A stretch of 64,000 nucleotides of DNA. Source: Flavobacteriaceae bacterium. Lineage in GTDB: Bacteria > Bacteroidota > Bacteroidia > Flavobacteriales > Flavobacteriaceae. Made by a program: the position numbers and the translations under genes. The notes under the pieces are model-generated. The model had not been told where the DNA came from. It worked only from the letters and a program-made list of their open reading frames with translations, and ran no database searches. The DNA lies in assembly GCA_018669795.1 (NCBI GenBank), contig JABHSQ010000005.1, forward strand, positions 248,001 through 312,000. The letters are read 5' to 3'. Positions 36,822 to 55,335 of the stretch are shown in pieces (position 1 is the first letter of the stretch; each line of letters starts with the position of its first letter).

Positions 36822-39143
36822 ATGAAAAACACATTTAGATTATTATTTATTTTTTTTATGTTTGTTGTTTCTACACACGTTTTTGCACAAGATAAAAAGC
36901 CTAAAGTCGCTTTAGTTTTAAGTGGAGGAGGAGCAAAAGGTATTGCGCATATTCCTGTTTTACAAGTTTTAGATTCTTTGGGGATTGTTCCAGATCTTAT
37001 AATTGGTACCAGTATGGGAAGTGTAGTTGGAGGTCTTTATGCAATGGGATATTCTGGTGATAGTATTGCAAATATTGCTAATAATACAAATTGGGACAAT
37101 TTGTTAACTTTAGACATTCCATTGAACAAAGTTAGTACTGAAGAAAAGAGTGAATTTAAAAAATATTTAGTTGAATTGGACATCATTAATTGGTCTCCTA
37201 AACTAAACCCTTCGCTATTAAGAGATCAAAACCTCCGTGAATTTTTGAGCCTATTAACTTTTCCAGTTTACAATATTAATAATTTTGATGACTTATCCAT
37301 TCCATTTCGAGCAATGACAACAGATATTGTAAATGGGAAAGAAGTTATTTTAGATAAAGGATCTTTAAGCCTAGCGATGCGCGCTAGTATGTCAGTGCCA
37401 AGTATATTTCAGCCGGTAGTTTATGAAAACACCTTGTTGGTAGATGGAGGGATACTCAATAATTTCCCTACTGATGTAGCAAAACTAATGGGTGCAGATA
37501 TTATTATAGGCAGTACAGTAGGAGGTGGTATGCTACCGAAAAATAAATTAGATAATATGTCTGCTTTATTAGTTCAATCAAGTATGCTATCAAGTAATTT
37601 AAAGGTTAAAAAAAATAAAGAAATCTGTGATATTCTTATAGATCATGTACCTTATCTTGAATATTCTACAGGAGATTTTAATAAAAGTAAAGAAATATTT
37701 AAAGAAGGAGAAATTGCAACTAACAACAATTTATCTAGTTTAGTTAAATTATCTAAAACTTTAAAAAAATATAAACAAAGAGTTCATAAAGTACCAGATG
37801 CTAAAAAGAAAATTCTTTTAGATACTATTATTTTTAAAAATATAAGTATTGGAAATTACGAAGTAGCTAAAGAAAGAACTGATATTGAACCTCATAAAAA
37901 ATACAGCGCTAAGGAATTAGTAGCAGGTGTTAACAGAGCAATAGGTACAAGAATGTTTTCAAAAATCAACTATAAATCATTTATAGAAAATAATCAACTT
38001 GGTTTGCAGTTAAACTTTTTTGAGTATTCTAAAAATCAATTCAAAGGTTCATTACATTACGATACGTATCGGGGTGGAGGAATAGTTGTTAATTATACTG
38101 GAAGAAATATTTTGGGTAAATCCTCTAGATTACTTGTTACTTTAGATATAGCTGAACAACCAAGGGCTAGATTGCAATATCAAAAAATATTTGGAACGCA
38201 TAAAAATTGGTGGTTTCAATCGGAGGCAATAGGAGAGTTGTTAATTCAAGAAGTATTTGAAGATGGAATTAAAATAGAAAATATAAAACAAAATTATTTT
38301 CAATTTAAGAATCAAATAAACAAGAATATTAATTCATTATACAGTTATGTTGGAGTTGGAATAGATTATGAGCTAACTAATTTAAGGCCAAGATTTAATC
38401 CAGATTTAGTTGGTAATTTTTTTGGTCTAAAAAAATATAATTTTAATACCATTGAAATTAATGCAAACTACACCTATAATAGTTTAAATAAAGTATTCTT
38501 TTCAACTAAAGGAACTTATTTTAAAGGCTCGGTAAGCAGGTCTATACATAACGCTATTTACATAGAGCCAATAGATGAAAATAGCCCTTCAATTGATGGT
38601 TTTACCAATCGTTTTTCAAAACTTAATTTAAGTTTTGAAAAACGATTTGGCTTTACTAAAAAAATAACAGGAATTTTAAAAGGCACTACTAACTTTATTT
38701 ATGAAGATACTCTAAAATCAGATGAGGTTTCATTTAATGAATATGGTTATGCAGGAAAATATTCTCTAGGAGGATATATTCCTAATAACCGCAGTAGAAG
38801 TTATTTGTTTGCAGGATTGCATGAAGATGAGCTTACCGTTAATCAATTCATGAAAATAACACTAGCCCTGCAATTAAATCCAATCAATAAAATATATGTA
38901 GTTCCCCATGTCAATATTGCTTCTGTTGGATTTACCAATTTTGACGATTATATAGAAGATGCTTTTTTTCCAAAAGGAGACTGGGAAGATAAAATAGAAA
39001 CCAGTTTATTAATGTCTGCAGGAGCTACTTTTTCATATAATTCTTTATTAGGTCCTGTTAATTTTGATATATCTTATATAAATGATGTTAATAAACTTAG
39101 GCTTTATTTTAGTGTAGGTTTTTTATTTAATTCATCCAACTAA
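36822..39143 (+). CDS. Patatin-like phospholipase with outer-membrane barrel
   Basis: 773 residues with a signal peptide ending at FAQ. Patatin domain (about 28-260): oxyanion loop SGGGAKGIAH, nucleophile GTSMGSVVGGLYA and DGG of the Ser-Asp dyad (LLVDGGILNNFPTD). A POTRA-like segment and an Omp85-type barrel follow (TYRGGGIVVNYTGRNILGKS onward). This is the PlpD / type Vd layout, in which a lipase is carried to the surface by its own barrel. First gene of a tight three-gene run with the sulfotransferase (10 bases) and START protein (6 bases). It could act on membrane or host lipid esters. Confidence 0.9.
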   Translation: MKNTFRLLFIFFMFVVSTHVFAQDKKPKVALVLSGGGAKGIAHIPVLQVLDSLGIVPDLIIGTSMGSVVGGLYAMGYSGDSIANIANNTNWDNLLTLDIPLNKVSTEEKSEFKKYLVELDIINWSPKLNPSLLRDQNLREFLSLLTFPVYNINNFDDLSIPFRAMTTDIVNGKEVILDKGSLSLAMRASMSVPSIFQPVVYENTLLVDGGILNNFPTDVAKLMGADIIIGSTVGGGMLPKNKLDNMSALLVQSSMLSSNLKVKKNKEICDILIDHVPYLEYSTGDFNKSKEIFKEGEIATNNNLSSLVKLSKTLKKYKQRVHKVPDAKKKILLDTIIFKNISIGNYEVAKERTDIEPHKKYSAKELVAGVNRAIGTRMFSKINYKSFIENNQLGLQLNFFEYSKNQFKGSLHYDTYRGGGIVVNYTGRNILGKSSRLLVTLDIAEQPRARLQYQKIFGTHKNWWFQSEAIGELLIQEVFEDGIKIENIKQNYFQFKNQINKNINSLYSYVGVGIDYELTNLRPRFNPDLVGNFFGLKKYNFNTIEINANYTYNSLNKVFFSTKGTYFKGSVSRSIHNAIYIEPIDENSPSIDGFTNRFSKLNLSFEKRFGFTKKITGILKGTTNFIYEDTLKSDEVSFNEYGYAGKYSLGGYIPNNRSRSYLFAGLHEDELTVNQFMKITLALQLNPINKIYVVPHVNIASVGFTNFDDYIEDAFFPKGDWEDKIETSLLMSAGATFSYNSLLGPVNFDISYINDVNKLRLYFSVGFLFNSSN

Positions 39144-39153
39144 TTATTATTAC

Positions 39154-40290
39154 ATGCCTAAAAAAAGTAAAAAAGGAATGTTATTACCACCTGCAATAGG
39201 ATATTCTTTTAAAATAGTTTTAGACTTGATTAGAAAGAATAAAATTCAATTTAAGTATGTTCCAAAGTTAATAGCAATAGTTATTGTGAATCTGATTAAT
39301 TATCCTTTTCGAAGCTATGAACGTTTATTTATTAATCCCAACTATTATAAAAAAAAAATTGATCATTCTCCAGTCTTTATAATTGGACATTGGAGAAGTG
39401 GTACGACTCATCTTCATAATTTGCTTTGTCAAGATGCTCAAATGGCTTATGCCACTACCTACCAAAGTGTATTTCCTGATACCCTATTCAATAAATTAGG
39501 GCGATTTTTATTTAGGGGTTTTTCCACCCTTTTAATCCCTGGAACTCGAAATGGTGATAATGTAACATTAGGAGCATCACTTCCTCAAGAAGAAGAATTT
39601 GCATTAGGAGATAAAACTCCACTATGTTTTTACTTTTTCTGGATGTTTCCTAACAATATGATTCAATACTATAATGATTTTATTAGGTTTAATAATATTG
39701 ATATTAATCAACTAGAGAAATGGAAAGCAGATTATAAGTTACTTATAAAGAAAGCTATAAAAAACACAAATAAGAAGCGTTATCTTTCTAAAAATCCTCC
39801 AAATACTGGACGTGTTAAGGTATTATTAGAAATGTTTCCTGACGCAAAGTTTATTCATATACATAGAAACCCAATAGAAGTATTCTTATCTACTCAAAAT
39901 TTTTATAAAAAGATGTTACCCCCATTGCAGTTGCAAAGCATTAGTTCTGAGGAAATTGATTTGAAAATTCAGGATATTTATAAAAAAATAATGAATGATT
40001 TTATTAAACAAAAAGAATCAATACCGAAGGGGAATCTTATTGAAATTTCATACAATGAATTGGAAAAAAATCCAATTGATACCTTAAGTGGGATATACAC
40101 AGCATTAAATATTGATAATTACGATATTGCTTTGAAAAACTTTGAAGCGTATGTTGATAAATTAAAAAGTTACAAAAAAAACCGGCACAAAATTAAAAAG
40201 AGTCAATTGGATATATTAATAAAAGAATGGGGTTTTACTATGGAAAAGTATAACTATTCGATTCCAAATAGTATAGAAATAGTAGATTAA
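39154..40290 (+). CDS. Sulfotransferase family protein
   Basis: 378 residues. The PAPS 5'-phosphosulfate loop is FIIGHWRSGTTHLHNLL (about 73-89) and the 3'-phosphate motif is FIHIHRNPIEVFLSTQNF (about 230). A long N-terminal stretch with an amphipathic or hydrophobic segment precedes the fold, so membrane association is possible. It transfers sulfate from PAPS to a hydroxyl or amine; the acceptor cannot be read. Flanked by lipid-related genes (patatin, START), which suggests a lipid or sterol-like acceptor. Confidence 0.9.
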   Translation: MPKKSKKGMLLPPAIGYSFKIVLDLIRKNKIQFKYVPKLIAIVIVNLINYPFRSYERLFINPNYYKKKIDHSPVFIIGHWRSGTTHLHNLLCQDAQMAYATTYQSVFPDTLFNKLGRFLFRGFSTLLIPGTRNGDNVTLGASLPQEEEFALGDKTPLCFYFFWMFPNNMIQYYNDFIRFNNIDINQLEKWKADYKLLIKKAIKNTNKKRYLSKNPPNTGRVKVLLEMFPDAKFIHIHRNPIEVFLSTQNFYKKMLPPLQLQSISSEEIDLKIQDIYKKIMNDFIKQKESIPKGNLIEISYNELEKNPIDTLSGIYTALNIDNYDIALKNFEAYVDKLKSYKKNRHKIKKSQLDILIKEWGFTMEKYNYSIPNSIEIVD

Positions 40291-40296
40291 TTTCAC

Positions 40297-40935
40297 ATGA
40301 AAAATATAGTAGTTTTAATATTTTTTTTAGCAGTTCAAAATTCATGTGTGTTCTCTCAAGCAGAATGGGTTTTAAATAGAGATACTGATGGGATAAAAGT
40401 TTATTCAAAAGAGGTGGAGGATTGTCAATTTAAATCCTTCAAAGCAATTACTACAATTAATGGATCTATTCATGATTTTGTTTTTACCCTTGCAGATATA
40501 GCTAATTTTCCAAAATGGGGACATCAAATTAAATCTGCTACAATATTAGAAAAAACAGGAGATACTCTACAAATCTATTATTCCATAGCAAAAGCTCCAT
40601 TTCCTTATAAAGATAGAGATGGTATATATCTCAATCGCTTTAAATGGGATTCAGATGCCAAAACTTTGACAGTAGAAATTGAAGTACTTAATGACTATTT
40701 AGATCATGATGATAACTATATTAGAGTAAAAGGATATGGTTATTGGAAAACAGTCCTTGTATCAGAAAACAAAATGGAGGTGACTTTTTCAATGCAAATA
40801 GATCCAGGAGGAAGTATTCCTTCTTGGCTTGCAAACTTGTTTGTAGACGGAACTCCTTTTCATACTTTATTAAACTTAAAGAATAGAATAGAAGCTAGTA
40901 AAGAAACTAATTTTAGATATGACTTTATTGATTGA
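40297..40935 (+). CDS. Secreted START-domain lipid-binding protein
   Basis: 212 residues with a signal peptide (cleavage near FSQ). The rest is one START / SRPBCC domain: EWVLNRDTDGIKVYSKEV, FTLADIANFPKWG, the hallmark SIAKAPFPYKDRDGIY and IDPGGSIPSWLANLF, WLAN preceding the C-terminal lid helix. START domains enclose a single hydrophobic ligand such as a sterol, phospholipid or ceramide. Export to the periplasm makes it a candidate shuttle. Last gene of the plus-strand run; its stop codon is one base from that of the convergent LolA-like gene. Confidence 0.88.
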   Translation: MKNIVVLIFFLAVQNSCVFSQAEWVLNRDTDGIKVYSKEVEDCQFKSFKAITTINGSIHDFVFTLADIANFPKWGHQIKSATILEKTGDTLQIYYSIAKAPFPYKDRDGIYLNRFKWDSDAKTLTVEIEVLNDYLDHDDNYIRVKGYGYWKTVLVSENKMEVTFSMQIDPGGSIPSWLANLFVDGTPFHTLLNLKNRIEASKETNFRYDFID

Positions 40936-40936
40936 T

Positions 40937-41671
40937 TTATTGTTTTAAATTTTCAACAGTAAAAACGTCATCATCAATTCCTTGATCAAATTTTACATCT
41001 GTCAATAAAATAGAAGTTGAATGTTTTTTTAAAACACTAGTCATGATGACTTCTTTTGCATACCAATACTTATCTTGTTTTTTATATTTATAAGTAGCTA
41101 ACTTGAAATAGTTATTACTTTTATTAAAAAATTCCATTTTAATTGGATAATAATTAGTTTTATCCATTGTTAAAATAATTTTCGAGTACTTTGTTTTTTT
41201 AGATTTTGGTGTCAATTCTAATGTGTAAAAATCAGGATCATTAGCGTTAATTATGATAGGATCATACCTATCACTATATGGAATACCACTCATATCTTCT
41301 TGTGAAAAATCAGTTCCTGTAAATGCTTGGCTTTTACTTAGCAAAGAAATTCTAATTGCTTTTCCAAATGCAGGCATGTATAACCATATTAAATCATCTG
41401 GAAGTGATAATGTAGCGATTCCCGATTGTTTTTCTGGTTTTGTATATCTATATAATTTTTTGAATTTCCCTTTTTGTTTTAAGGAAGCTTCTCTTTTCTT
41501 TTCATTACCCGATTTATCCGTTATTACCATTAAAACGGAAGCTTCTTTATCTTTAGGTGCTGCAATTAAAAGATCCATGTTTTGTAACAAAGCGATAGCG
41601 CTTTGAGCTTTTAATGGACTGTAATTAAAAAAGATAATAACGATATATACTGTTACAAGCTTAAGATTCAT
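40937..41671 (-). CDS. LolA-like outer-membrane lipoprotein-sorting protein
   Basis: 244 residues with a signal peptide ending near LKAQ. It has the LolA/LolB-like half-barrel pattern of the COG2834 type (MVITDKSGNEKKREASLKQ, LIWLYMPAFGKAIRIS, YPIKMEFFNK, TDVKFDQGIDDDVFTV). Members of this group regularly pair with RND transporters and are thought to accept the lipid cargo. Here the start overlaps the RND gene by 11 bases, so the pair is translationally coupled. Periplasmic carrier; ligand unknown. Confidence 0.85.
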   Translation of the reverse strand: MNLKLVTVYIVIIFFNYSPLKAQSAIALLQNMDLLIAAPKDKEASVLMVITDKSGNEKKREASLKQKGKFKKLYRYTKPEKQSGIATLSLPDDLIWLYMPAFGKAIRISLLSKSQAFTGTDFSQEDMSGIPYSDRYDPIIINANDPDFYTLELTPKSKKTKYSKIILTMDKTNYYPIKMEFFNKSNNYFKLATYKYKKQDKYWYAKEVIMTSVLKKHSTSILLTDVKFDQGIDDDVFTVENLKQ

Positions 41672-43925
41672 TTTGCATATTGTTTTTAGACTTATTTCTA
41701 TTCATTAATATTAATATGGAAGGAAGTAGTGTTAAAGCACCTAAACATGAGCTAACCATACTAAGTGCAATGAGTAGTCCGAAATATTGTAACGGAACCA
41801 TTTCTGAAAAAACTAAAATTAAGAATCCTGCAGAAACTGAAATTACATTAATAATTATCGCATTTCCACTAATTAAAATTGATTCTTGAATTGATGCATA
41901 AAGATCTTGACTTTTTTTGTAGGATTCATTAAAATGTGAAATGATGTGAATGGAATAATCTATTCCTATCCCGAGAGCAACACTAGCAACTAATACAGTT
42001 GCAATGTTTAATGAGATTCCAGTCAGTCCCATAAAACCAAATAGTAAGATGATGGTTGCTATAATTGGTATGGAAGCATAAAGGCCACTTATCCAAGAAC
42101 GCAATATGATGCCTACTAAAATGATAACAAAAAGTATCGCAATTAAGATACTTCCTATTTGACTATTTATTAAACTTTGATCCATTGTGATATCAACAAA
42201 TGGCATTCCAGTGATTTCAATTTCACAATCTTCAGAAGAATTAGTAGCTATAAAAGCCCTCATATATTTTGCAAATTCTTTTTTTGATTCATTATCGGGA
42301 GATTTAAATTTAGAGATGATAATACCTTCCGTTAAATCTTCATTTACAAAACGATTTAAGACTTCATTCCCTTCTAGTAAAAACCATAATTGTTCTATCT
42401 GTTCACTCTTATTTGGTATTCCTCTTGTATTCGTAATATTTAAATTAATTTCAGCAATCAATTTTGCAATAGACATTGAAGTATATACATCTGGGCTTTT
42501 CTCCATATATTCAGAAGTCTGAATCATGGTCTTTAAAACCTTAGGGCTTTGCATATTGCCTTTAAAATGAACAAATATTGGTTTGGTGCCTCCAAACTTT
42601 TCAATCATTATGTTTTCGGCCAATCGCGTTGGATTGTTCTTTTTAAAATACTCTTGAATATCAACACTTCTTTTAATTGAAGACATTCCAACAATACTTA
42701 TTGCAATTAATACCATCCAAAAAATCAATATAGTTTTGGGTCTTTTAATTAATAATGCATTAATGGGTTTAAGAAAATAATTGGTTAGAAAGGAATGTTC
42801 CTTTTGCTTAATATTTTTTTTTCTTTTATAATTTATAACTTCTAAAATAGCAGGGACGAAGAAAATGGATAATAGGGATGCAAACAAGGTGCCTAATGCT
42901 GTAAAGATTCCAAAATCAACAATCATATTAAGATAGGCTCCAAATATGAAAGAAACAAAGCCAATAATCGTTGTGAGTGCTGCTAAAATTAATGGTATTA
43001 AAACAAAAGCAAGAGCCCTAGCAATTACATCTGTTTCTTTTGATTGACTTACTTTATTGATTCTATTGATCACGTGGATGGTATAAGCACTTCCAATCGC
43101 CAATAATATAATGGGTATATTATTTGAAATCATAGACATTTTAATATCGAGAAAAGCCATGCTACCCAAACTCCAAACTATAGCTATAATGGCAATTAAA
43201 AGAGGCAATAATACACCGCTTATCGATCTAAAACTCAAGAATAAAATGAATGCAATTACTAAAAAAGCAAGGGGTAATAAATTTGTTAAATCATCCCTCA
43301 TTAAATCTGAAATATAGGTTAGTAGCATAGGGGAACCTATATAGTAAAGCTTCTCAGGTAAGTTTAATTCTTCTGTTTTTTGAATTACGTTTTTAGCTAT
43401 CGCATTAACATCGGAATTATTATCTAAATTAAAAATGATTAATGTAGAAGTTTCATCTTCAGAGACAATGGAACCTTTATACATTTCATTATTTAAAATA
43501 TTATTTCTTAAAATTTGAAAATCTTTAGGACTTTCAGGCATTTCATATTCATCTACTAATTTTCCAATTTCAATTCCATAATCACCTCCTTTGATATTTA
43601 TAATATTAGTAAGGCTAGAAACAGTTGTAATTCCATCGATGTTAGCTAAAGTATATGTAAGTAATTGAATGTGCTCTAATACAGAGGTCTGGTAAATGTT
43701 ATCCGTTTCAAGGATAATAACTCCCATATTATTGCCTCCAAAATTCTCTCCTATTTTTTTTAATAACCTGGCATCTGGATCTTCATCTGGTAAAGATCTT
43801 AAAATATCAGCATCTATTTTCAGGCTTCTTATTTCATTTCCAAAGAAAAGGGTGCCCATTAAAACCAATGAGATGATCAGCCACTTTTTAGCTAATATTC
43901 CTTTAGATAACTTTAGGAGTTCCAA
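41661..43925 (-). CDS. RND/MMPL-superfamily lipid transporter
   Basis: 754 residues, about 12 membrane segments in two halves, each with a large periplasmic loop (about 35-210 and 420-590). Typical text: LLPLLIAIIAIVWSLGSMAF, AIGSAYTIHVINR in the first half and the matching VALGIGIDYSIHIISHFNES in the second, with acidic residues that could carry protons. The family (COG1033) includes hopanoid and sterol exporters and is distantly like NPC1/Patched. The annotated start is a TTG at 43925 directly behind 13 consecutive A (coding strand); see the separate entry for the frame problem. Operon partner: the LolA-like gene. Confidence 0.88.
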   Translation of the reverse strand: MELLKLSKGILAKKWLIISLVLMGTLFFGNEIRSLKIDADILRSLPDEDPDARLLKKIGENFGGNNMGVIILETDNIYQTSVLEHIQLLTYTLANIDGITTVSSLTNIINIKGGDYGIEIGKLVDEYEMPESPKDFQILRNNILNNEMYKGSIVSEDETSTLIIFNLDNNSDVNAIAKNVIQKTEELNLPEKLYYIGSPMLLTYISDLMRDDLTNLLPLAFLVIAFILFLSFRSISGVLLPLLIAIIAIVWSLGSMAFLDIKMSMISNNIPIILLAIGSAYTIHVINRINKVSQSKETDVIARALAFVLIPLILAALTTIIGFVSFIFGAYLNMIVDFGIFTALGTLFASLLSIFFVPAILEVINYKRKKNIKQKEHSFLTNYFLKPINALLIKRPKTILIFWMVLIAISIVGMSSIKRSVDIQEYFKKNNPTRLAENIMIEKFGGTKPIFVHFKGNMQSPKVLKTMIQTSEYMEKSPDVYTSMSIAKLIAEINLNITNTRGIPNKSEQIEQLWFLLEGNEVLNRFVNEDLTEGIIISKFKSPDNESKKEFAKYMRAFIATNSSEDCEIEITGMPFVDITMDQSLINSQIGSILIAILFVIILVGIILRSWISGLYASIPIIATIILLFGFMGLTGISLNIATVLVASVALGIGIDYSIHIISHFNESYKKSQDLYASIQESILISGNAIIINVISVSAGFLILVFSEMVPLQYFGLLIALSMVSSCLGALTLLPSILILMNRNKSKNNMQNES

Positions 43926-43928
43926 ATC

Positions 43929-43941
43929 TTTTTTTTTTTTT
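43929..43941 (-). repeat. Homopolymer A13 at the RND gene start
   Basis: On the coding (minus) strand an ATG at 43950 is followed by two codons and 13 A. It is one base out of frame with the RND protein; with 12 A it would read MHFKKKKDLELLKLSKG, a natural start with a basic N-terminus. With 13 A only the TTG at 43925 is in frame. The tract could be a phase-variable or slippage switch, or a base-count error. Confidence 0.6.
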
Positions 43942-43993: not shown

Positions 43994-44743
43994 TTACCAC
44001 AATTTAGGCAGAAGTGCTTTCCTTTTTTTAGGATATTTTTTAAAATTATTTTTATACCAATTATGATGTCCCGCTACTCTTGGCAGTAAATTAGCAGCTG
44101 TCCATATTAAAAAAGTTGTTGCTGGAAAATTCCAAGCCATTAAAGCAAAACCAATCCATTGAATAATCTCTCCCAAATAATTTGGGCAAGAGATATATTC
44201 AAAAAGAAAACCTCTTGGTATTTTATAAGCTATTTCACCTGATTTTCTAAGGTTAATAAGAATGGTATCACTAATTTGATTTATTAAAAAACCACCAATA
44301 AACAGTAGTATACCTAAATAAAAATTCCAGTTTTGAAAAGAAGAAATATCATAGTGTTCCAAATTGGATAAAAAATATCCATTCAACCCAGCATTAACAA
44401 AATTGAAACCTATAGCAGATAGCACAATAGTAATGGGCATTTTTTTTCTTTTGGTTCTAATCCTAAATGGGTATATAAAAGTTCTATTAAAATAATGAAT
44501 CAGCCAAAGTACACTTAACATAGCGGCATAATGACTCTGCTTGGAACTTACAAAAAAATAAAAGATGATTAAAAACGAAGGTATTTCCATAAGAACCCAT
44601 CCCAAATTATTAGGAATTTCTATTCCCCAACCTTTTCTTAGGTGCCTACCATAAGGCGCTCTTATAAATTGCAATAGAATAAATGAAGAAACACCAACTA
44701 ATGACCAGATGATACAGATTAAATTAAATGTTTCTAAACTCAT
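43994..44743 (-). CDS. Steroid 5alpha-reductase family membrane enzyme
   Basis: 249 residues, six to seven membrane segments. It follows the eukaryotic SRD5A/DET2 layout closely: RAPYGRHLRKGWG with the conserved Tyr and Arg, WVLMEIPS with the catalytic-region Glu, RGFLFEYISCPNYLGEIIQW (the NADPH-binding signature) and the C-terminal HHNWYKNNFKKYPKKRKAL. SRD5A enzymes reduce a 4-ene-3-oxo steroid double bond with NADPH; relatives reduce other enones, polyprenols or fatty enoyls. Between the SDR gene (5 bases) and the RND gene (68 bases). The fold is secure; the substrate is inferred. Confidence 0.88.
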   Translation of the reverse strand: MSLETFNLICIIWSLVGVSSFILLQFIRAPYGRHLRKGWGIEIPNNLGWVLMEIPSFLIIFYFFVSSKQSHYAAMLSVLWLIHYFNRTFIYPFRIRTKRKKMPITIVLSAIGFNFVNAGLNGYFLSNLEHYDISSFQNWNFYLGILLFIGGFLINQISDTILINLRKSGEIAYKIPRGFLFEYISCPNYLGEIIQWIGFALMAWNFPATTFLIWTAANLLPRVAGHHNWYKNNFKKYPKKRKALLPKLW

Positions 44744-44748
44744 AAATT

Positions 44749-45717
44749 TTATTTTTTTCTATACCAAGTCAATAAGTCTTGTATGGTTTCATTGATTGGT
44801 CTGACCAAATGATTTAAAGCTGTTTTAGCTTTAAAAAAATCCATTTGCTTTGGTGCTAGTTTTAAGGTTATTAAACTCTCTTTGCTTATAGGCCAATGTG
44901 AATTAAATATTTTTTTAGCAATTTTAATAAATGGTATTGTAGCGATTAGTAAAGGAATTGGAATACTAATAAAGTATTTTTTTGGGTTTGCAATTTCTGC
45001 AATTTGTTTGACGGTAAAATAATTACCACCCACTAAATAAATTTCTCCTTGTTTACCTAAACTAATACTATTAATAATGGTTTGTGATAAATCCCTAACA
45101 TCTACTATATTGTATCCTCCTGTGGTAATAAATGGGATTTTATAATTAGCCATGTCTATAATTGATTGTCCAAAATGTGAAGGTTTATGATCTGGAGGGC
45201 CAACAATAGCAGTTGGTCTTATTATAAAAGCTGCTAAGCTAAAATTTTCAATCGCTTTCAGTACTTTTTTTTCAGCGGTTGCTTTTGTCCAATCATACAA
45301 AAAATGATCTTTTGTTTTATAGGGTCTATTTTCGGTATATACTTCCTTCTTTTTAGTTTCAATAACTGCAGCACAAGAGCTTATATAAATCATTTTAACG
45401 TTTTGATTTAAACAAGCATCAATTAAATGTTCTGTACCTTTTACATTGATTTGATAAACTTCACTTTCATTTTTATCACCAATAGAAATAATACCGGCTG
45501 CATGAATTAATACAGACGTATTTTTAAGCAACTCTTTTAAGGTATCCGGTTTTAATACGTCTCCCTTAATCCAATTTAAATTTGGATGAATTACAGTAGG
45601 TTTACTATGGTAATATAGTGCATTGACATAATAGTTTTTTTCAAGAAGTAATGTTATCAAACAACTTCCTAAATGACCGGCTCCTCCCGTGATACTAATA
45701 AATTTCTCTTTATCCAT
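44749..45717 (-). CDS. NAD(P)-dependent SDR, 3beta-HSD/DFR-like
   Basis: 322 residues. Extended short-chain dehydrogenase with nucleotide loop TGGAGHLGSCL (about 10-20), ISSCAAV with the catalytic-region Ser, YDWTK active-site Tyr-Lys (about 145), RPTAIVGPPDHKP and GGYNIVDVRDLSQ. This is the branch that includes 3beta-hydroxysteroid dehydrogenase/isomerase, dihydroflavonol reductase and hopanoid-associated sugar epimerases. The gene ends 5 bases before the 5alpha-reductase gene, and both redox steps would act on a related ring system if the steroid reading is right. Cytoplasmic. Confidence 0.85.
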   Translation of the reverse strand: MDKEKFISITGGAGHLGSCLITLLLEKNYYVNALYYHSKPTVIHPNLNWIKGDVLKPDTLKELLKNTSVLIHAAGIISIGDKNESEVYQINVKGTEHLIDACLNQNVKMIYISSCAAVIETKKKEVYTENRPYKTKDHFLYDWTKATAEKKVLKAIENFSLAAFIIRPTAIVGPPDHKPSHFGQSIIDMANYKIPFITTGGYNIVDVRDLSQTIINSISLGKQGEIYLVGGNYFTVKQIAEIANPKKYFISIPIPLLIATIPFIKIAKKIFNSHWPISKESLITLKLAPKQMDFFKAKTALNHLVRPINETIQDLLTWYRKK

Positions 45718-45768: not shown

Positions 45769-46428
45769 TTATTTAAAATAAGGAGTTATTTTATTAAAAC
45801 TAATTTCTTTAAAATTTGAAATTATTTTAGTTGCCTCTGCATATTCTTGATTTTTTGAATTAGGACTTTTAAAAGCTACACAAAAGATACCTGCAGCTGC
45901 AGCTGCTTTAATACCATTGGTAGAGTCTTCAATAACCAAACATTCATTTTTTGAATGCCCTGAAGCGATAGCGGCTTTTATAAATATCTCTGGATGAGGT
46001 TTAGACGCTTTTAAATCTGCCCCACTAAGTTTCGCTATAAAATAGTTATTTAGTCCAAACCTGTTAAAAACATTATTTATCGTAGCCATAGAAGCTGAAG
46101 ATGCTAGTACCAGCGTTATACCGTTTTTGTGATAATCTTTAATTAAATCTAAAACACCATCAATGAGAGCTAAGTTTTTATCATTAAAAAACAGTTCCTT
46201 AAAAAAATTTCTTTTCAGTAGAACTAAGGTTTCTGATGATTGAGATAAATTAAAAAGGTTGCAAAGTTGTTTGCATATATTGCTAGTAGATTGTCCTGTA
46301 AATGATTCATACAATGTATCTGAAACAGTAATATTTACTGCATCAAACATTTTATAATACGCTTTACAATGTAGCGGCTCGGTATCTACAATGACCCCAT
46401 CCATATCAAATAAAACGGCTTTTAACAT
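45769..46428 (-). CDS. HAD-superfamily hydrolase (beta-phosphoglucomutase-like)
   Basis: 219 residues from the ATG at 46428; an upstream in-frame ATG at 46443 adds only five residues. Motif I FDMDGVIVDTEP, motif II LVLASSA, motif III Lys in ASKPHPE and motif IV VIEDSTNGIKAA are all present, with a helical cap after motif I as in beta-phosphoglucomutase and phosphoglycolate phosphatase. Substrate unclear; a sugar phosphate or polyprenyl-type phosphate are options. It precedes the SDR gene by 51 bases. Confidence 0.88.
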   Translation of the reverse strand: MLKAVLFDMDGVIVDTEPLHCKAYYKMFDAVNITVSDTLYESFTGQSTSNICKQLCNLFNLSQSSETLVLLKRNFFKELFFNDKNLALIDGVLDLIKDYHKNGITLVLASSASMATINNVFNRFGLNNYFIAKLSGADLKASKPHPEIFIKAAIASGHSKNECLVIEDSTNGIKAAAAAGIFCVAFKSPNSKNQEYAEATKIISNFKEISFNKITPYFK

Positions 46429-46477
46429 AGTTTTTATTTGCAAATATACACGATGATTTAACCAATCGAATACTAAG

Positions 46478-47136: not shown

Positions 47137-47643
47137 ATGGAATTATTTGAAACCCAATCTTCCCTTTTTCCAACTAAATATTCTGAAATACTTCAGCGTG
47201 TTCGCCTTATAGACCCTATTAAGTATAGTTCGACACGAAATTACATCAATGGTTCGGTTAGCCATTTATCACCTTATATTTCAAGGGGAATTATTTCTAC
47301 AAAATTTATTCTATCCGAAATTTTAAATCGTGGATATAAACCTGGTCAGGTTGAAAAATTCATACAAGAATTAACTTGGAGAGACTACTGGCAACAGGTT
47401 TGGGTTTCAAAAGGTGACGGTATAAATGAAGACATTAAAAATAAGCAAACACCCATTACTAACACCTGTATTTCAAAAGCTATCATTGAAGCCAATACTG
47501 GTATTCAAGCAATAGATCAAAGCATTCAAAATTTTTATAAAACAGGCTATTTACACAATCACCTAAGGATGTATATCGCTTCAATAGCTTGTAATATAGC
47601 GGCTAGCGGTCCTACAAGCGATATTATAAGGATGCTTAAATAG
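47137..47643 (+). pseudogene. Photolyase/cryptochrome-related gene, 3'-truncated
   Basis: 168 residues matching the start of the FAD-binding domain of flavobacterial photolyase-like proteins: STRNYINGSVSHLSPYISRG, ELTWRDYWQQVWV and GYLHNHLRMYIASIACNIA. After that (about 47607) similarity stops and 13 unrelated residues lead to a stop. The region expected next (the WASNALSWQWVAG-type segment that holds much of the flavin pocket) is missing, and it is not found in any frame of the following 870 bases. The protein should be about two to three times longer, so it is very probably inactive. Confidence 0.75.
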
Positions 47644-48200: not shown

Positions 48201-48226
48201 CCTTAGCTAAAATAAATTAGCTAAGG
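48201..48226. repeat. Perfect inverted repeat built on TTAGCTAA
   Basis: CCTTAGCTAA (48201-48210) and TTAGCTAAGG (48217-48226) form a 10-bp stem with a 6-base loop; partial pairing continues outwards (AGTAA with TTACT). No T run follows, so a simple terminator is unlikely. It overlaps the first tandem repeat unit. Confidence 0.7.
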
Positions 48227-48311
48227 AGTTACTAATTAAAAGGGTTAGCAATCTTGCTAAAATAAATTAGCTAAGGAGTTACTAATTAAAAGGGTTAGCA
48301 ATCTTGCTAAA
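48206..48311. repeat. Tandem direct repeat, two perfect 50-bp units
   Basis: Bases 48206-48255 and 48256-48305 are identical, followed by six bases of a third unit. Identity over 50 bases points to a recent duplication. Confidence 0.9.
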
Positions 48312-51618: not shown

Positions 51619-52494
51619 CTAGTTGTTTCTTTTTCTAAATCCGTAGGTGTTTTGATCTATAAAACTCTTGGGAAATTTATCGATACCAGGAAATCCCAAG
51701 TTAATAGTCCCGCTATCTTCTGGTATGTAATTAGTTTTAAAGATATAATCCCAAAGGCTTAGGCTAATTCCAAAATTCACGCCATACTTGCCTTCTGGCA
51801 CATCATAAGCATGGTGTTGTAAATGCATTACCGGGTTATTAATAATATATTTTAGGGGCCCCCAGGTAATTTTAATATTAGCGTGGTTAAAGTGACCGAT
51901 AGTAATTGCAATAAAATGAACAATGTAGGCCTGTTCTGGCTCAAAGCCAAACAATATCATAACAGCGAATGTTTTCAATGGCTTATAAAAGATGTTTTCC
52001 ATCCAGTGGTAACGCAAATGTGCTGCAAATCCCATTTCTTTAACGCTGTGGTGAACTTTATGGAATTTCCAAAGAAAGGAGTATTTATGGAGTAATGTAT
52101 GAGTAAACCACTGCACAAAATCCAAGATAATAAAGAAAACAACTAATTGCAACCACAAAGGCCAACTAGATGGATTGATAAGTGCTATGGTTTTATTTGT
52201 AATTCCGATATCAGTAAAACCTACTTGTAAAAGTTTGTAAAATCCACTTATAGCAATAGAAAAGATAAAGAAATTAAAAAACATATAAAAGCCATCTAAC
52301 CAAAAATCCTTTCTAAAAACAGATTGTTCCTTTCTCCACGGAAAAGCAATTTCTAAAACCCATACAAAAAGAGAAATAGTAATTAATCCCCAAAAGTAAT
52401 TGGTATACCAAGGCACTTCAAAAAGGATCGATTTCCAAGTCCAATCGACGGTTCCGTTAAAAGCATTAAAAAATGTATCTAGGTATTTAATCAT
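51619..52494 (-). CDS. Sterol desaturase / fatty acid hydroxylase family protein
   Basis: 291 residues with about four membrane segments. The di-iron histidine motifs are HTLLH, HKVHHS and LQHHAYD, plus further His residues (HFNHAN), as in the fatty acid hydroxylase superfamily. The enzyme inserts oxygen or a double bond in a lipid chain or ring in the membrane. It starts 2 bases after the rhodanese gene's stop, so it is read with the sulfite-oxidation genes although no functional link is obvious. Substrate unknown. Confidence 0.9.
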   Translation of the reverse strand: MIKYLDTFFNAFNGTVDWTWKSILFEVPWYTNYFWGLITISLFVWVLEIAFPWRKEQSVFRKDFWLDGFYMFFNFFIFSIAISGFYKLLQVGFTDIGITNKTIALINPSSWPLWLQLVVFFIILDFVQWFTHTLLHKYSFLWKFHKVHHSVKEMGFAAHLRYHWMENIFYKPLKTFAVMILFGFEPEQAYIVHFIAITIGHFNHANIKITWGPLKYIINNPVMHLQHHAYDVPEGKYGVNFGISLSLWDYIFKTNYIPEDSGTINLGFPGIDKFPKSFIDQNTYGFRKRNN

Positions 52495-52496
52495 AA

Positions 52497-53444
52497 TTAT
52501 TTAAATAGGCTTGTGATGCTATCTTGTTGAATAGGTGCCTGGTCAAAATTACTCCATTCTGTCCAAGATCCATCATAATTTTTTACATTTTTATAAGCTA
52601 ATAATTGAGTAAGCACAAATGTTGTATGTGCTGAACGCACACCACTATGGCAATAGACAATAATAGTATCATTTTTTGAAACACCAAATTTCTTATATAT
52701 TTTATCTAGTTCTTCTATCGATTTTATTTTTTTATCACCGTTATAATCTACAGCTACAGACCAATCAATACTTATGCTGTTTGGTATTCTTCCTCCTTTT
52801 GAAGCCCCATTCTTCTGTCTTTTCCCAGTAAATTCATCAGTAGTTCTAGTGTCCAATATCAGTGTTTTATTTGTGATAGCTTCTAGCATTTCTTCTTTTG
52901 AACCATAGTACTTCATAGAAGGTTTTTCAGGTAATTTAAATAGTGTTTTTTGCACCAAAGGCACTTCTGTGGAAATAGCGCCATTATGCAATTTCCAAGC
53001 TGCAATTCCCCCATGAAATAATCTCACATTTGTAAAATCATAATTCTGCAAGATCCACCATAATCTTGAAGAATCACAGAGTCCATTATCATCATAAATG
53101 ATGATGGTATCACTTTTATTTACACCTAGACGGCCTAACAAGGTCTCCATTTGCTCTTTTCCAGCCATCATCCCCTTATAAGGATAGGAGGCATCTTCTA
53201 GGTCTGTTCGCCATATATTTAAAGCTCCCTTGATATGTTCTTTTTTATAAAATTCAGATTTTCTAAAATCTAAAATCTTAATATTTGGTTCTTTGACTAT
53301 TTTTAGCAACTCATCTACTTCAATTAAGTAGTTGGTTTCTATATTTTTTTTAGCCTGCTCAATCACATCTATTTTAACTATTTTTTCTTCTTTACAAGCT
53401 GTAAAAGAGAGTATTAACACCACGAAACTAATTCTCCAAGTCAT
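52497..53444 (-). CDS. Tandem-rhodanese sulfurtransferase lipoprotein
   Basis: 315 residues with lipobox LSFTAC (Cys about 17). Two rhodanese domains: an N-terminal one (IKILDFRKSEFYKKEHIKGA, DDNGLCDSSRLWW) and a catalytic C-terminal one with the active-site loop CHSGVRSAH. This is the thiosulfate sulfurtransferase / SseA layout. Lipid anchoring puts it on the periplasmic side, where it can release sulfite from thiosulfate or persulfides. It overlaps the cytochrome gene by 17 bases. Confidence 0.9.
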   Translation of the reverse strand: MTWRISFVVLILSFTACKEEKIVKIDVIEQAKKNIETNYLIEVDELLKIVKEPNIKILDFRKSEFYKKEHIKGALNIWRTDLEDASYPYKGMMAGKEQMETLLGRLGVNKSDTIIIYDDNGLCDSSRLWWILQNYDFTNVRLFHGGIAAWKLHNGAISTEVPLVQKTLFKLPEKPSMKYYGSKEEMLEAITNKTLILDTRTTDEFTGKRQKNGASKGGRIPNSISIDWSVAVDYNGDKKIKSIEELDKIYKKFGVSKNDTIIVYCHSGVRSAHTTFVLTQLLAYKNVKNYDGSWTEWSNFDQAPIQQDSITSLFK

Positions 53445-53898
53445 ACCATGTTATATTTGTTAAGTTTTCGCGCCTACCTGTATCTTCAAAAGGATAATTA
53501 GTAACTAGATAATTCACTATGATCTCTTGATCAAGACCTAAATCCCATAAATTTTGTGTTTCCTGCATCCATATAATCGTTGCATTCCAATGTTCTTTAC
53601 TCATTCTGTTTTGTGTGACTAATTTTGCTGAATGGCAGTTGGTACAATTATTAATAACCGTCATTAATCCATCTGCATCAACAAATCCCGTTCGTAGGTG
53701 AATCCCATTTTCTATAATGTCCTCGTCTACCTCCTTTAATGAAGTAGCTGTTTCTGTGCGATCCTTAAATGCTGAAAAATTTGGGTCAAATACATAGTAT
53801 GTCATTAGCACTCCAACCATCATAAATAAACAAAAGCCTGCCATCATTAAATGATAGAGGATTTTGACGGATTTTTTAAATTCTTCTCCTTTGTTCAT
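53428..53898 (-). CDS. Membrane-anchored c-type cytochrome (SorB-like)
   Basis: 156 residues. One N-terminal membrane segment (about 15-33) and a single heme-c site NCTNCHSAKL (about 90-99) with a possible Met ligand downstream. It begins exactly one base before the sulfite dehydrogenase stop region and overlaps the rhodanese gene. Its place directly after a SorA-type enzyme identifies it as the likely electron acceptor, delivering electrons to the respiratory chain. The family is inferred from this neighbourhood; the sequence outside the heme site is not diagnostic. Confidence 0.85.
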   Translation of the reverse strand: MNKGEEFKKSVKILYHLMMAGFCLFMMVGVLMTYYVFDPNFSAFKDRTETATSLKEVDEDIIENGIHLRTGFVDADGLMTVINNCTNCHSAKLVTQNRMSKEHWNATIIWMQETQNLWDLGLDQEIIVNYLVTNYPFEDTGRRENLTNITWYDLEN

Positions 53899-55119
53899 TT
53901 AGCTAACTTTGATAGCAATTCGATGACAGGCATTATTTAAATATCCTTTTGGATTCCAACCTGGCACTAACATTGGTTGTTTTATATCTTGTGTATCTGT
54001 TGCTCTAGCCCAAACCTCATAGTATCCTTTTTTAGGAAATTCTACCCTTCCCGAAAAATGTTGCCAAGCTAAACGATTTGCAGGTTTTTCAATGGAACAC
54101 TCTTTCCAAGTGGATCCAAAATCTATCGAATATTCCATTTTTGTAACTTCTAATTCTCCAGCCCAAGCATGGCCTCTAATATTTAAAGAAGCGCCTTCTT
54201 TAATGATAGCACCAGATTTAGGGTATGTTATTAATGATTTTACAGGCATAGACTCTATAATACACATATCCTCATCCTTCACCTTTTCTCCTGGAGCAAC
54301 TGGGTCACAAGGTACTCGATAGGCTGTACCTATCATTTTTGCACCATCGTGTATTTTGTTTCTAATACTGATGCGATTTATCCACTTCCCAGAAACTGAT
54401 GCAGGCCAACCTCCAGCAACCAACCGCAATGGATAACCGTGCACTAAAGGAATATCCTTGCCATTCATCTTAAAAGCTACTAAGGTTTCGTCTTGAAGTG
54501 ACTTTAACATTGGAGCACCTCTTGAAATAGGTTCCTTATTAGGAGCTCCACTTAAATGCACATCGGCAGCATGGTAGCCAATGTAAACGGCATCATTTTT
54601 AATTCCTGCATCTTCTAAAACATCGCGCAATCGAACTCCTGTCCACCTAGCACAATGCACAGCGCCTATAGTCCATTGGTTTCCTTTTGCTGGCGGATTA
54701 AATTCGCTTCTTCCATTCCCTCCGCATTCTAAAGTTAGCTGATAGGTATGCTGTTTAAATTTAGATTTTAGTTCCGTAAGCGTATATTTTTTTTCTTTTA
54801 CTACCGACGCTCCGTCAATGGTGAGTGTCCAACTTAATGGTTCTATACCTTCCGGAATTAATCCATTGTTTCTAATAAACATTGCAGAATTTGGTGTGAT
54901 TTTATCATCGAGCAAATGTGCTTGAGCTTCCATATTCCAAGGTTTATCATTTAATAGGACCATTTCCTTTTTCTTATGAAACATCTTAAAGGGATCTGGT
55001 TCTTCTAACGCTAATGGATTATATCCTTCTAGCATATTAAATCCAAAAACAATTTCAGCTCCAATTAAAGCAGTAAATGAGCTTAATGTTGTTTTTTTAA
55101 CAAAATCTCTTCTCTTCAA
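53899..55119 (-). CDS. Molybdenum sulfite dehydrogenase/oxidase (SorA-like), Tat-exported
   Basis: 406 residues from a TTG at 55119, chosen because it starts exactly with a Tat signal (LKRRDFVKKTTLSSFTALIG); the frame runs open to an ATG at 55308, but those 63 extra residues look non-coding. Moco domain: Mo-ligand Cys in TLECGGNGRSEF, HCARWTGVRLRDVL and VHGYPLRLVAGGWPASVSGKW, followed by an Ig-like dimerisation domain (GASLNIRGHAWAGE, MEYSIDFGSTW). It oxidises sulfite to sulfate in the periplasm and passes electrons to the adjacent cytochrome. First gene of the run. Confidence 0.9.
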   Translation of the reverse strand: MKRRDFVKKTTLSSFTALIGAEIVFGFNMLEGYNPLALEEPDPFKMFHKKKEMVLLNDKPWNMEAQAHLLDDKITPNSAMFIRNNGLIPEGIEPLSWTLTIDGASVVKEKKYTLTELKSKFKQHTYQLTLECGGNGRSEFNPPAKGNQWTIGAVHCARWTGVRLRDVLEDAGIKNDAVYIGYHAADVHLSGAPNKEPISRGAPMLKSLQDETLVAFKMNGKDIPLVHGYPLRLVAGGWPASVSGKWINRISIRNKIHDGAKMIGTAYRVPCDPVAPGEKVKDEDMCIIESMPVKSLITYPKSGAIIKEGASLNIRGHAWAGELEVTKMEYSIDFGSTWKECSIEKPANRLAWQHFSGRVEFPKKGYYEVWARATDTQDIKQPMLVPGWNPKGYLNNACHRIAIKVS

Positions 55120-55335
55120 AACGATAAATTTATTTGTTCTTCGGGTAAATTTAAACAATATATTATTGTAATGCTTTTTTATTATCTTTAAATATTTATG
55201 GGTTCCATTAAAAAGAAAACGAATCAATTTCGGATTGACAATTTTAAATCTTGTTTTAATTTTCACTTTTGATTCTTTTCTGTCGCATATTCTAATTAAT
55301 TTATACATAGTAATTTTAATAATAAAACCAACATT

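Follow-up and report, generated by a model that had tools for sequence, protein, structure and literature searches.

A steroid 5alpha-reductase-like protein and a 3beta-HSD-like dehydrogenase encoded by a conserved gene pair with a probable steroid function in a Flavobacteriaceae genome

Introduction

Two adjacent genes, encoding an SRD5A-like membrane 5alpha-reductase (5AR) and an extended short-chain dehydrogenase/reductase (SDR) that resembles 3beta-hydroxysteroid dehydrogenase (3beta-HSD), are the subject of this report. They are located on a 64,000-nucleotide stretch of contig JABHSQ010000005.1 (positions 248,001 to 312,000 of the forward strand, assembly GCA_018669795.1) of a Flavobacteriaceae bacterium; this whole stretch is called the window, and all positions given below refer to it. 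The closest described relatives of 5AR are the proteobacterial enzyme PbSRD5A (PDB 7c83), for which progesterone is the preferred substrate, and human SRD5A2 (PDB 7bw1), a eukaryotic enzyme of the endoplasmic reticulum that prefers testosterone (PMC7815742). Both contain a Q-E-Y motif, of which the Glu and Tyr are positioned at the substrate carbonyl while the Gln steadies the Glu, and activity is lost in the SRD5A2 mutants Q56A/L, E57L and Y91F (PMC7815742, PMC7591894). Asn192 and Glu196 of PbSRD5A bind NADPH, and SRD5A3 has been placed in the same broad family as SRD5A1/2 (PMC7815742).

Several other bacterial systems that act on steroids have been described. Gut Bacteroidetes clusters composed of genes for a 5alpha-reductase, a 5beta-reductase (5BR) and a 3beta-hydroxysteroid dehydrogenase (3beta-HSDH) are said to convert 3-oxolithocholic acid to isoallolithocholic acid (isoalloLCA) (PMC12697870), and the gut enzymes BaiP/BaiJ reduce bile acids to the 5alpha form (PMC13008668). 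SpiR, which oxidises cholesterol and reduces 3-keto steroids (PMC13079761), and IsmA come from Eubacterium coprostanoligenes and its kin, where coprostanol is the end product. A sulfotransferase of Bacteroides, BT_0416, sulfonates cholesterol (PMC12667688), and in Methylococcus the BstA, BstB and BstC proteins include an RND transporter linked to sterol genes and a periplasmic carrier (PMC10942540). Bacterial cyclases are known in Fluviicola and Eudoraea (PMC4919349). The terms "5alpha-reductase" and "Bacteroid" are both absent from the main text of two papers on bacterial sterol synthesis (PMC13277303, PMC10202945).

In marine sediments, the conversion of delta5-stenols to stanols is taken to indicate degradation by bacteria (PMC8704379; PMC7292411, where the process is described as anaerobic), and 5alpha-cholestanol is the major stanol of Baltic surface sediment (PMC7292411). 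The accessible sections of these two papers name no enzyme for this conversion. A literature search by titles and abstract openings found no marine bacterial 5alpha-reductase, a weak negative as subscription journals were mostly outside its reach. Here we describe the 5AR-SDR pair, its conservation and its genomic context, and argue that it probably acts on a steroid substrate in the broad sense.

Results

The 5AR and SDR genes form a conserved two-gene unit

A preliminary description of the window, made from its letters, had placed the two genes 5 bases apart. The open reading frames (ORFs) 43994-44743 and 44749-45717 were confirmed, with a spacing of 5 bp, so that the pair spans positions 43994-45717 of the minus strand. 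The features of the pair are as follows.

43994-44743, minus strand: 5AR, SRD5A-like membrane 5alpha-reductase, 249 aa, M-E-Y subgroup (PF02544, PDB matches, AF2 model)
44585-44590, minus strand: Met52-Glu53 of 5AR, equivalent to Gln56-Glu57 of SRD5A2 (alignment)
44492-44494, minus strand: Tyr84 of 5AR, equivalent to Tyr91 of SRD5A2 (alignment)
44168-44203, minus strand: FEYISCPNYLGE, residues 181-192 of 5AR, on the NADPH side, including Asn188 and Glu192 (alignment)
44749-45717, minus strand: SDR, extended, 3beta-HSD-like, 322 aa; proposed 3-hydroxy/3-oxo sterol oxidoreductase (PF01073)
45667-45690, minus strand: cofactor motif TGGAGHLG of SDR, residues 10-17 (conserved in SDR rows)
45283-45297, minus strand: catalytic YDWTK of SDR, with Tyr141 and Lys145 (conserved in SDR rows)

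To assess conservation, 73 Bacteroidota loci were examined, in 71 of which our script recognised the reductase. The SDR gene is located directly upstream of the 5AR gene, on the same strand, in 39 of these 71 loci (23 of the 33 obtained by the close-relative search and 16 of the 38 from the genome samples), which exceeds what chance would give, and in 19 of the 39 the two ORFs overlap by 4 bases. The pair is apparently old and common. Together with the matches to PF02544 and PF01073 given below, this bears out the earlier proposal that an SRD5A-like reductase and a 3beta-HSD-like SDR constitute a conserved unit. In the sample of the window's family 12 of the 299 genomes carried a 5AR, and among Bacteroidia genomes 53 of 395 did (the window's own genome being counted in both), which indicates that the 5AR family is patchy and not core. 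No further steady partner of 5AR was seen in Lutimonas-type, Crocinitomicaceae and Bacteroidales loci, whose neighboring genes included those for an acyl-CoA dehydrogenase, M61 peptidase, OYE, FAD oxidase, histidine kinase and TatC. A plasmid collection contained two distant 5AR relatives.

An OYE-family reductase gene is located a few genes upstream of the pair in the Lutimonas-type loci L012, L013, L014, L015 and L144; the OYE of L144 matches BaiCD with 168 bits, far under the cut-off. In loci L134-L136 and L145 an OYE gene lies directly behind that for 5AR.

5AR is a full-length member of the steroid 5alpha-reductase family

5AR matched the Pfam family Steroid_dh (PF02544) with 173 bits over the whole model (1-150 of 150; cut-off 22.6), and DUF1295 with 32.4 bits only. 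The PDB matches obtained at E<=0.01 were PbSRD5A (210.6 bits), human SRD5A2 (149.3 bits) and, for the C-terminal part, TECR (60 bits), and no others. In a second comparison TECR scored 87.9 bits versus 265.5 for 7c83 and 213.2 for SRD5A2. The AF2 model of 5AR, built from 25 aligned sequences, had a pLDDT of 89.4, and Foldseek gave TM scores (query) of 0.93 to 7c83 and 0.87 to 7bw1; the next match was a sterol C14 reductase with an E value of 0.035.

A tree of 5AR relatives was constructed that comprised 91 rows (88 non-PDB rows after removal of repeats), was midpoint-rooted for drawing and did not extend to SRD5A3 and DET2. The TECR part was placed on a very long branch, followed by SRD5A2, PbSRD5A and the remaining rows, a deep branching order that is unsure as it rests on long branches. 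The reductases of the window's cluster type (14 rows) formed a separate branch (97/65) among Flavobacteriaceae-like sequences, and the four OYE-type reductases formed a branch of their own (100/99). Score, fold search and tree together rule out that 5AR is a fatty enoyl-CoA reductase of the TECR/DUF1295 kind (DUF1295 by score). The preliminary description had named grouping with such fatty enoyl enzymes as one outcome that would speak against it, and this grouping did not occur.

The active site of 5AR defines a subgroup with Met in place of Gln

Residues Glu53, Tyr84 and Arg87 of 5AR were invariant in 25 of 25 aligned sequences, that of the window included. In agreement with the preliminary description, the reductase keeps the Glu, the Tyr/Arg and FEYISCPNYLGE over its full length. 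A larger set of 105 non-PDB rows contained Met52 and Glu53 in all 105 cases; the window protein itself and repeated copies of single genes are counted in this set, which leans towards the window's own subgroup because similarity to the window protein was the basis on which nearly all rows were collected. Tyr84 was likewise present in 105/105 rows and also in the PDB chains, Glu192 in 105/105 and Asn188 in 104/105. Among the rows is a Phocaeicola reductase that has OYE and a classical SDR as neighbors. All 13 NADPH-binding residues named for PbSRD5A are identical in 5AR, the Y189 site being variable among relatives.

5AR therefore resembles PbSRD5A in its full-length fold, its NADPH residues and the catalytic Glu and Tyr, and resembles SRD5A2 in fold and in the equivalents of Glu57 and Tyr91. 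It differs from both in Met52, the position of which is occupied by Gln53 in PbSRD5A and by Gln56 in SRD5A2. Because all 105 non-PDB rows carry Met, this residue is a trait of a subgroup, and the possibility that Met52 is a local oddity or a sign of decay was ruled out. Accordingly, we class 5AR within Steroid_dh as belonging to an M-E-Y subgroup and not as a Q-E-Y type. Plant DET2 likewise has Met at the Gln site. The Met subgroup shows that a large number of bacterial relatives depart from the published Q-E-Y signature, a point of importance for annotation.

SDR is 3beta-HSD-like and matches no named enzyme at its cut-off

SDR matched PF01073 (3Beta_HSD) with 95.7 bits (cut-off 22), with Epimerase close behind at 92.8 bits. 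Among all NCBIfam models the closest were HpnA (151.5 bits, cut-off 367.65) and SdmB (124.3 bits, cut-off 600), and neither cut-off was reached; OleD-type reductases were matched with 72-74 bits. The best PDB match was 3wj7 (110 bits), followed by a sterol-4-alpha-carboxylate 3-dehydrogenase (64.9 bits). Residues T10, G11, G14, G17, Y141 and K145 were conserved in at least 95% of 40 SDR rows. Since the HpnA and SdmB scores are far under their cut-offs, and 3Beta_HSD and Epimerase score nearly alike, we withheld a specific name: judged by its sequence, SDR is 3beta-HSD-like but assignable to no named enzyme. As far as their description allows the comparison, SpiR and IsmA are likewise SDR-family enzymes, and differ in the organisms and end product mentioned above.

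5AR co-occurs with sterol synthesis in other Bacteroidia

The window genome, listed as 99.12% complete, has no match to squalene/oxidosqualene cyclase and none to squalene epoxidase, and on these grounds de novo sterol synthesis in this organism was rejected. Among the 395 Bacteroidia genomes, cyclase matches were obtained in 79 at E<=1e-3, 51 were over the cut-off and 10 were full-length with more than 160 bits, the next best having 63.3 bits. All 10 genomes with a full-length oxidosqualene cyclase fall among the 53 that carry 5AR (hypergeometric 8.6e-10, kinship ignored), and it is for this reason that we assign the pair a steroid context. SDR adjoins 5AR in nine of the ten, G434 being the exception. 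One cyclase was compared with the PDB and proved to be a lanosterol-synthase-type enzyme (680 bits to 1w6k versus 165 to squalene-hopene cyclase); it adjoins genes for a squalene epoxidase and a squalene/phytoene-synthase-family protein. The other nine cyclases, one of which is a fragment, are 44-53% identical to it. Kin of squalene epoxidase were found in six of the ten cyclase-bearing stretches, and one of these was tested with Pfam.

A block of transport and modification genes accompanies the pair

Four additional genes are located next to the pair in the window.

41661-43925, minus strand: RND/MMPL transporter, 754 aa (MMPL and Sterol-sensing matches)
40937-41671, minus strand: LolA-like periplasmic carrier, 244 aa (PF17131 LolA_like)
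40297-40935, plus strand: START-domain protein, 212 aa, with an N-terminal hydrophobic helix (PF01852)
39154-40290, plus strand: sulfotransferase-family protein, 378 aa (PF13469)

The order on the minus strand is SDR, 5AR, RND, LolA-like, and the START and sulfotransferase genes meet these tail to tail. Of the 33 related loci, 13 had matches to all six genes, and in these same 13 an RND ortholog was found with the LolA-like gene adjoining. Beyond the six genes the flanks vary between lineages, near relatives sharing theirs. In the genome-wide sample, for which RND and sulfotransferase were searched (LolA-like and START genes accompanied RND in the loci that were read), close RND orthologs of at least 64% identity were present in 6 of 299 family genomes belonging to four genera, leaving uncounted weaker matches of 25-28% in nine genomes. 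Close sulfotransferase orthologs (at least 57%; one cut by a contig end) were present in the same 6 of 299, with uncounted matches of 32% in two genomes. All six genomes carry 5AR, and no cyclase match was found in any of them. In two of the six, G025 and G253 (the coordinates of which match Lutimonas halocynthiae), the four-gene block is located far from SDR-5AR. That the block is kept even though it is unlinked in these genomes speaks more strongly for a shared function than adjacency does.

The RND protein matched MMPL with 143 bits, Sterol-sensing with 52.8 bits and HAE3 (TIGR00921) with 280.7 bits, the last being under its cut-off. Of the NCBIfam models, BstA (30.5 of 1400 bits) and HpnN (49.2 of 1100 and 106.4 of 751.85 bits) were also matched, far below cut-off. 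NPC1, Patched and HpnN were among its PDB matches, none of which exceeded 42.2 bits. The LolA-like carrier matched PF17131 with 149 bits and PDB 3bk5 with 84.3 bits. Thus, the block resembles BstABC in combining an RND transporter with a periplasmic carrier, and differs from it in the low score of its RND protein to BstA, in a carrier that is LolA-like instead of phosphonate-binding-like, and in the addition of START and sulfotransferase genes. It would therefore be a sterol-handling route distinct from BstABC, provided that sterols are its cargo.

The START protein matched PF01852 with 33 bits (cut-off 22), and its N-terminal hydrophobic helix is probably a signal peptide. The best Foldseek match of its model (pLDDT 81.9) was 3qsz, a START protein of Xanthomonas (TM 0.76), followed by CERT, with StAR and STARD4 lower, likenesses which indicate that the cargo could be a sterol or another lipid. 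The sulfotransferase matched PF13469 with 117.7 bits (cut-off 27), and its PDB matches were weak (27.7 bits). PDB entries 2zq5 and 2z6v are presumably mycobacterial sulfotransferases. BT_0416, likened by its description, provides a Bacteroidota precedent, and the corresponding role in the window is suggested by context. The presence of an APS kinase (221.2 bits) in the window genome makes it probable that the cell can produce PAPS, although this kinase may serve sulfate assimilation alone.

Thirteen consecutive T (A on the coding strand) occupy positions 43929-43941, just 5' of the listed RND start codon; variation in its length could tune expression.

Proposed function and alternatives

The link of the pair with steroids is well supported. 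The simplest account of the data is that the pair saturates the A-ring of sterols, which would be home-made in the cyclase lineages and scavenged in the window's lineage, where a dedicated transport block would handle the product. For the more specific proposal, that scavenged stenols are converted to 5alpha-stanols and that the block transports the product, we see the chances as even. In this scheme SDR would oxidise the 3-hydroxyl of a scavenged sterol, and the membrane-embedded 5AR would convert the 4-ene-3-oxo intermediate to the 5alpha-ketone with NADPH as reductant, the substrate carbonyl being held by Glu53 and Tyr84. At the end SDR would reduce the 3-ketone again, giving a net conversion of stenol to 5alpha-stanol. 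The RND, LolA-like and secreted START proteins would transfer the product among the periplasm and the inner and outer membranes, and its 3-hydroxyl may be a target of the sulfotransferase. The substrate, the order and direction of the reactions and the actor that shifts the C5 double bond to C4 are what we infer, and the direction of transport and the sulfonation are guesses from family names.

In part, this agrees with the two-step steroid redox pair envisaged in the preliminary description. The conserved unit and the steroid context, with 5AR in all ten cyclase genomes, uphold that reading; the Met at the position of the motif Gln, the nearness of SDR to HpnA and SdmB, the four neighboring genes and the lack of detectable sterol synthesis had all been missed.

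Several observations weigh against a sterol-saturating role. The Gln of the Q-E-Y motif is replaced by Met52 in the window, while SRD5A2 Q56A/L is inactive (PMC7815742), and the literature search found no assay of any protein shown to be in the Met subgroup. An adjacent SDR is not visible in 32 of the 71 loci, in a few of which the reductase is near a contig end that would hide any neighbor. Nine of the ten cyclase genomes are from the single family f29, so the joint occurrences of cyclase and 5AR are not independent events, and 43 of the 53 genomes with 5AR are without a full-length cyclase. Conversely, the family sample of 299 genomes contains a single cyclase genome, G104, whose cyclase scores 411 bits to lanosterol synthase, and a search of it gave no 5AR at thresholds as permissive as E 0.001. 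START, LolA-like and RND proteins handle a wide variety of lipids. The double-bond shift from C5 to C4 has no assigned actor, and no search aimed at a steroid isomerase was made. Finally, the stanol/sterol ratio is described as a marker of anaerobic microbial transformation, and Baltic water column samples were without stanols (PMC7292411), which disfavors the view that stanols arise mainly from an aerobic plankton bacterium.

Instead of full-length sterols, the pair could act on animal-type steroids or bile-acid-like compounds (C19-C24) derived from hosts or faeces, an alternative that we regard as unlikely though deserving of attention. The progesterone preference of PbSRD5A and the published isoalloLCA clusters of Bacteroidetes would fit it, and the carrier names Xanthomarina spongicola and Lutimonas halocynthiae suggest animal sources. 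The OYE-type loci would fit as well: behind 5AR-OYE, L145 (Phocaeicola) has an SDR, and L134 and L135 have SDR-like ORFs. From its gene content L145 would be a gut 5AR-5BR-3beta-HSDH cluster, and it shares with the window a Bacteroidota 5AR with Met at the Gln site and an SDR close by. However, the four OYE-type reductases are only 31-38% identical to 5AR and occupy their own branch in the tree, and the SDR behind the L145 reductase is of the classical instead of the extended kind. Neither OYE (5BR) nor a classical SDR adjoins the pair in the window, and queries for RND, LolA, START and sulfotransferase gave no match in the stretches of L134-L136 and L145. The co-occurrence with sterol cyclase also points to sterols.

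It is also rather doubtful that the likeness to steroid enzymes is one of fold only, the pair reducing an alpha,beta-unsaturated carbonyl in some other isoprenoid or polyketide lipid that RND and LolA place in the outer membrane. The broad lipid range of such carriers would allow this, as would the matches of SDR to OleD-type reductases, the Gln to Met replacement in 5AR and the many carriers of 5AR that have no full-length cyclase. Against it stand the closeness of 5AR to PbSRD5A and SRD5A2 over its full length and its presence in every cyclase genome of the class sample.

A third alternative, which we consider improbable, is that in the cyclase lineages SDR-5AR catalyses a different reaction of sterol biosynthesis, such as C-4 demethylation or alkene reduction, and that the window pair descends from that use. 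SDR indeed matches SdmB, with 124.3 bits in the window and 189.3 in L118, but both scores are under the cut-off of 600, and the window genome has no cyclase match. That 5AR is a polyprenol reductase like SRD5A3, a member of the same broad family (PMC7815742), is very improbable given its full-length closeness to the steroid enzymes and its patchy presence in 12 of 299 family genomes, which is unlike a core lipid step.

Returning to the saturation of scavenged sterols, a further-reaching and distinctly tentative extension is that marine flavobacteria unable to make sterols take up algal or animal sterols, saturate them to 5alpha-stanols and place these, perhaps as sulfates, in the outer membrane via their own RND-LolA-START route. 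If true, sterols that were taken up and then remodelled would make up part of a bacterial membrane, and some of the 5alpha-stanols in sea water and sediment would have a genetic source. As the gene pair is defined and occurs in strains that can be cultured, the cluster being present in Bizionia, Formosa and Xanthomarina, the stanol question is testable.

Other features near the pair

A gene for a HAD hydrolase lies upstream of the pair and is possibly co-transcribed with it, outside the conserved core.

45769-46443, minus strand: HAD hydrolase (HAD_2, 104.9 bits)

Among the 33 related loci a match to this hydrolase was limited to five, namely L003, L004, L006, L007 and L025. A wider operon that would include the HAD, patatin or photolyase-like neighbors was considered, but these had matches only in a few close relatives. 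A gene for a fusion of a patatin phospholipase and an Omp85 barrel (36822-39143, plus strand) ends 10 bases before the sulfotransferase gene and was matched only in L025 among the 33 related loci. On the other side of the pair, a photolyase-like ORF of 168 aa (47137-47643, plus strand) with a partial FAD_binding_7 match is followed by stops in all three forward frames and is probably a remnant; L025, a close relative, has a stretch of 157 aa matching it. Behind this remnant a 50-base unit is present in two perfect tandem copies at 48206-48305, together with a 21-base imperfect inverted repeat. In the region 51619-55308 (minus strand) a gene for a fatty acid hydroxylase/sterol-desaturase-type protein adjoins one for a protein with two rhodanese stretches, and a molybdopterin oxidoreductase gene is located further on.

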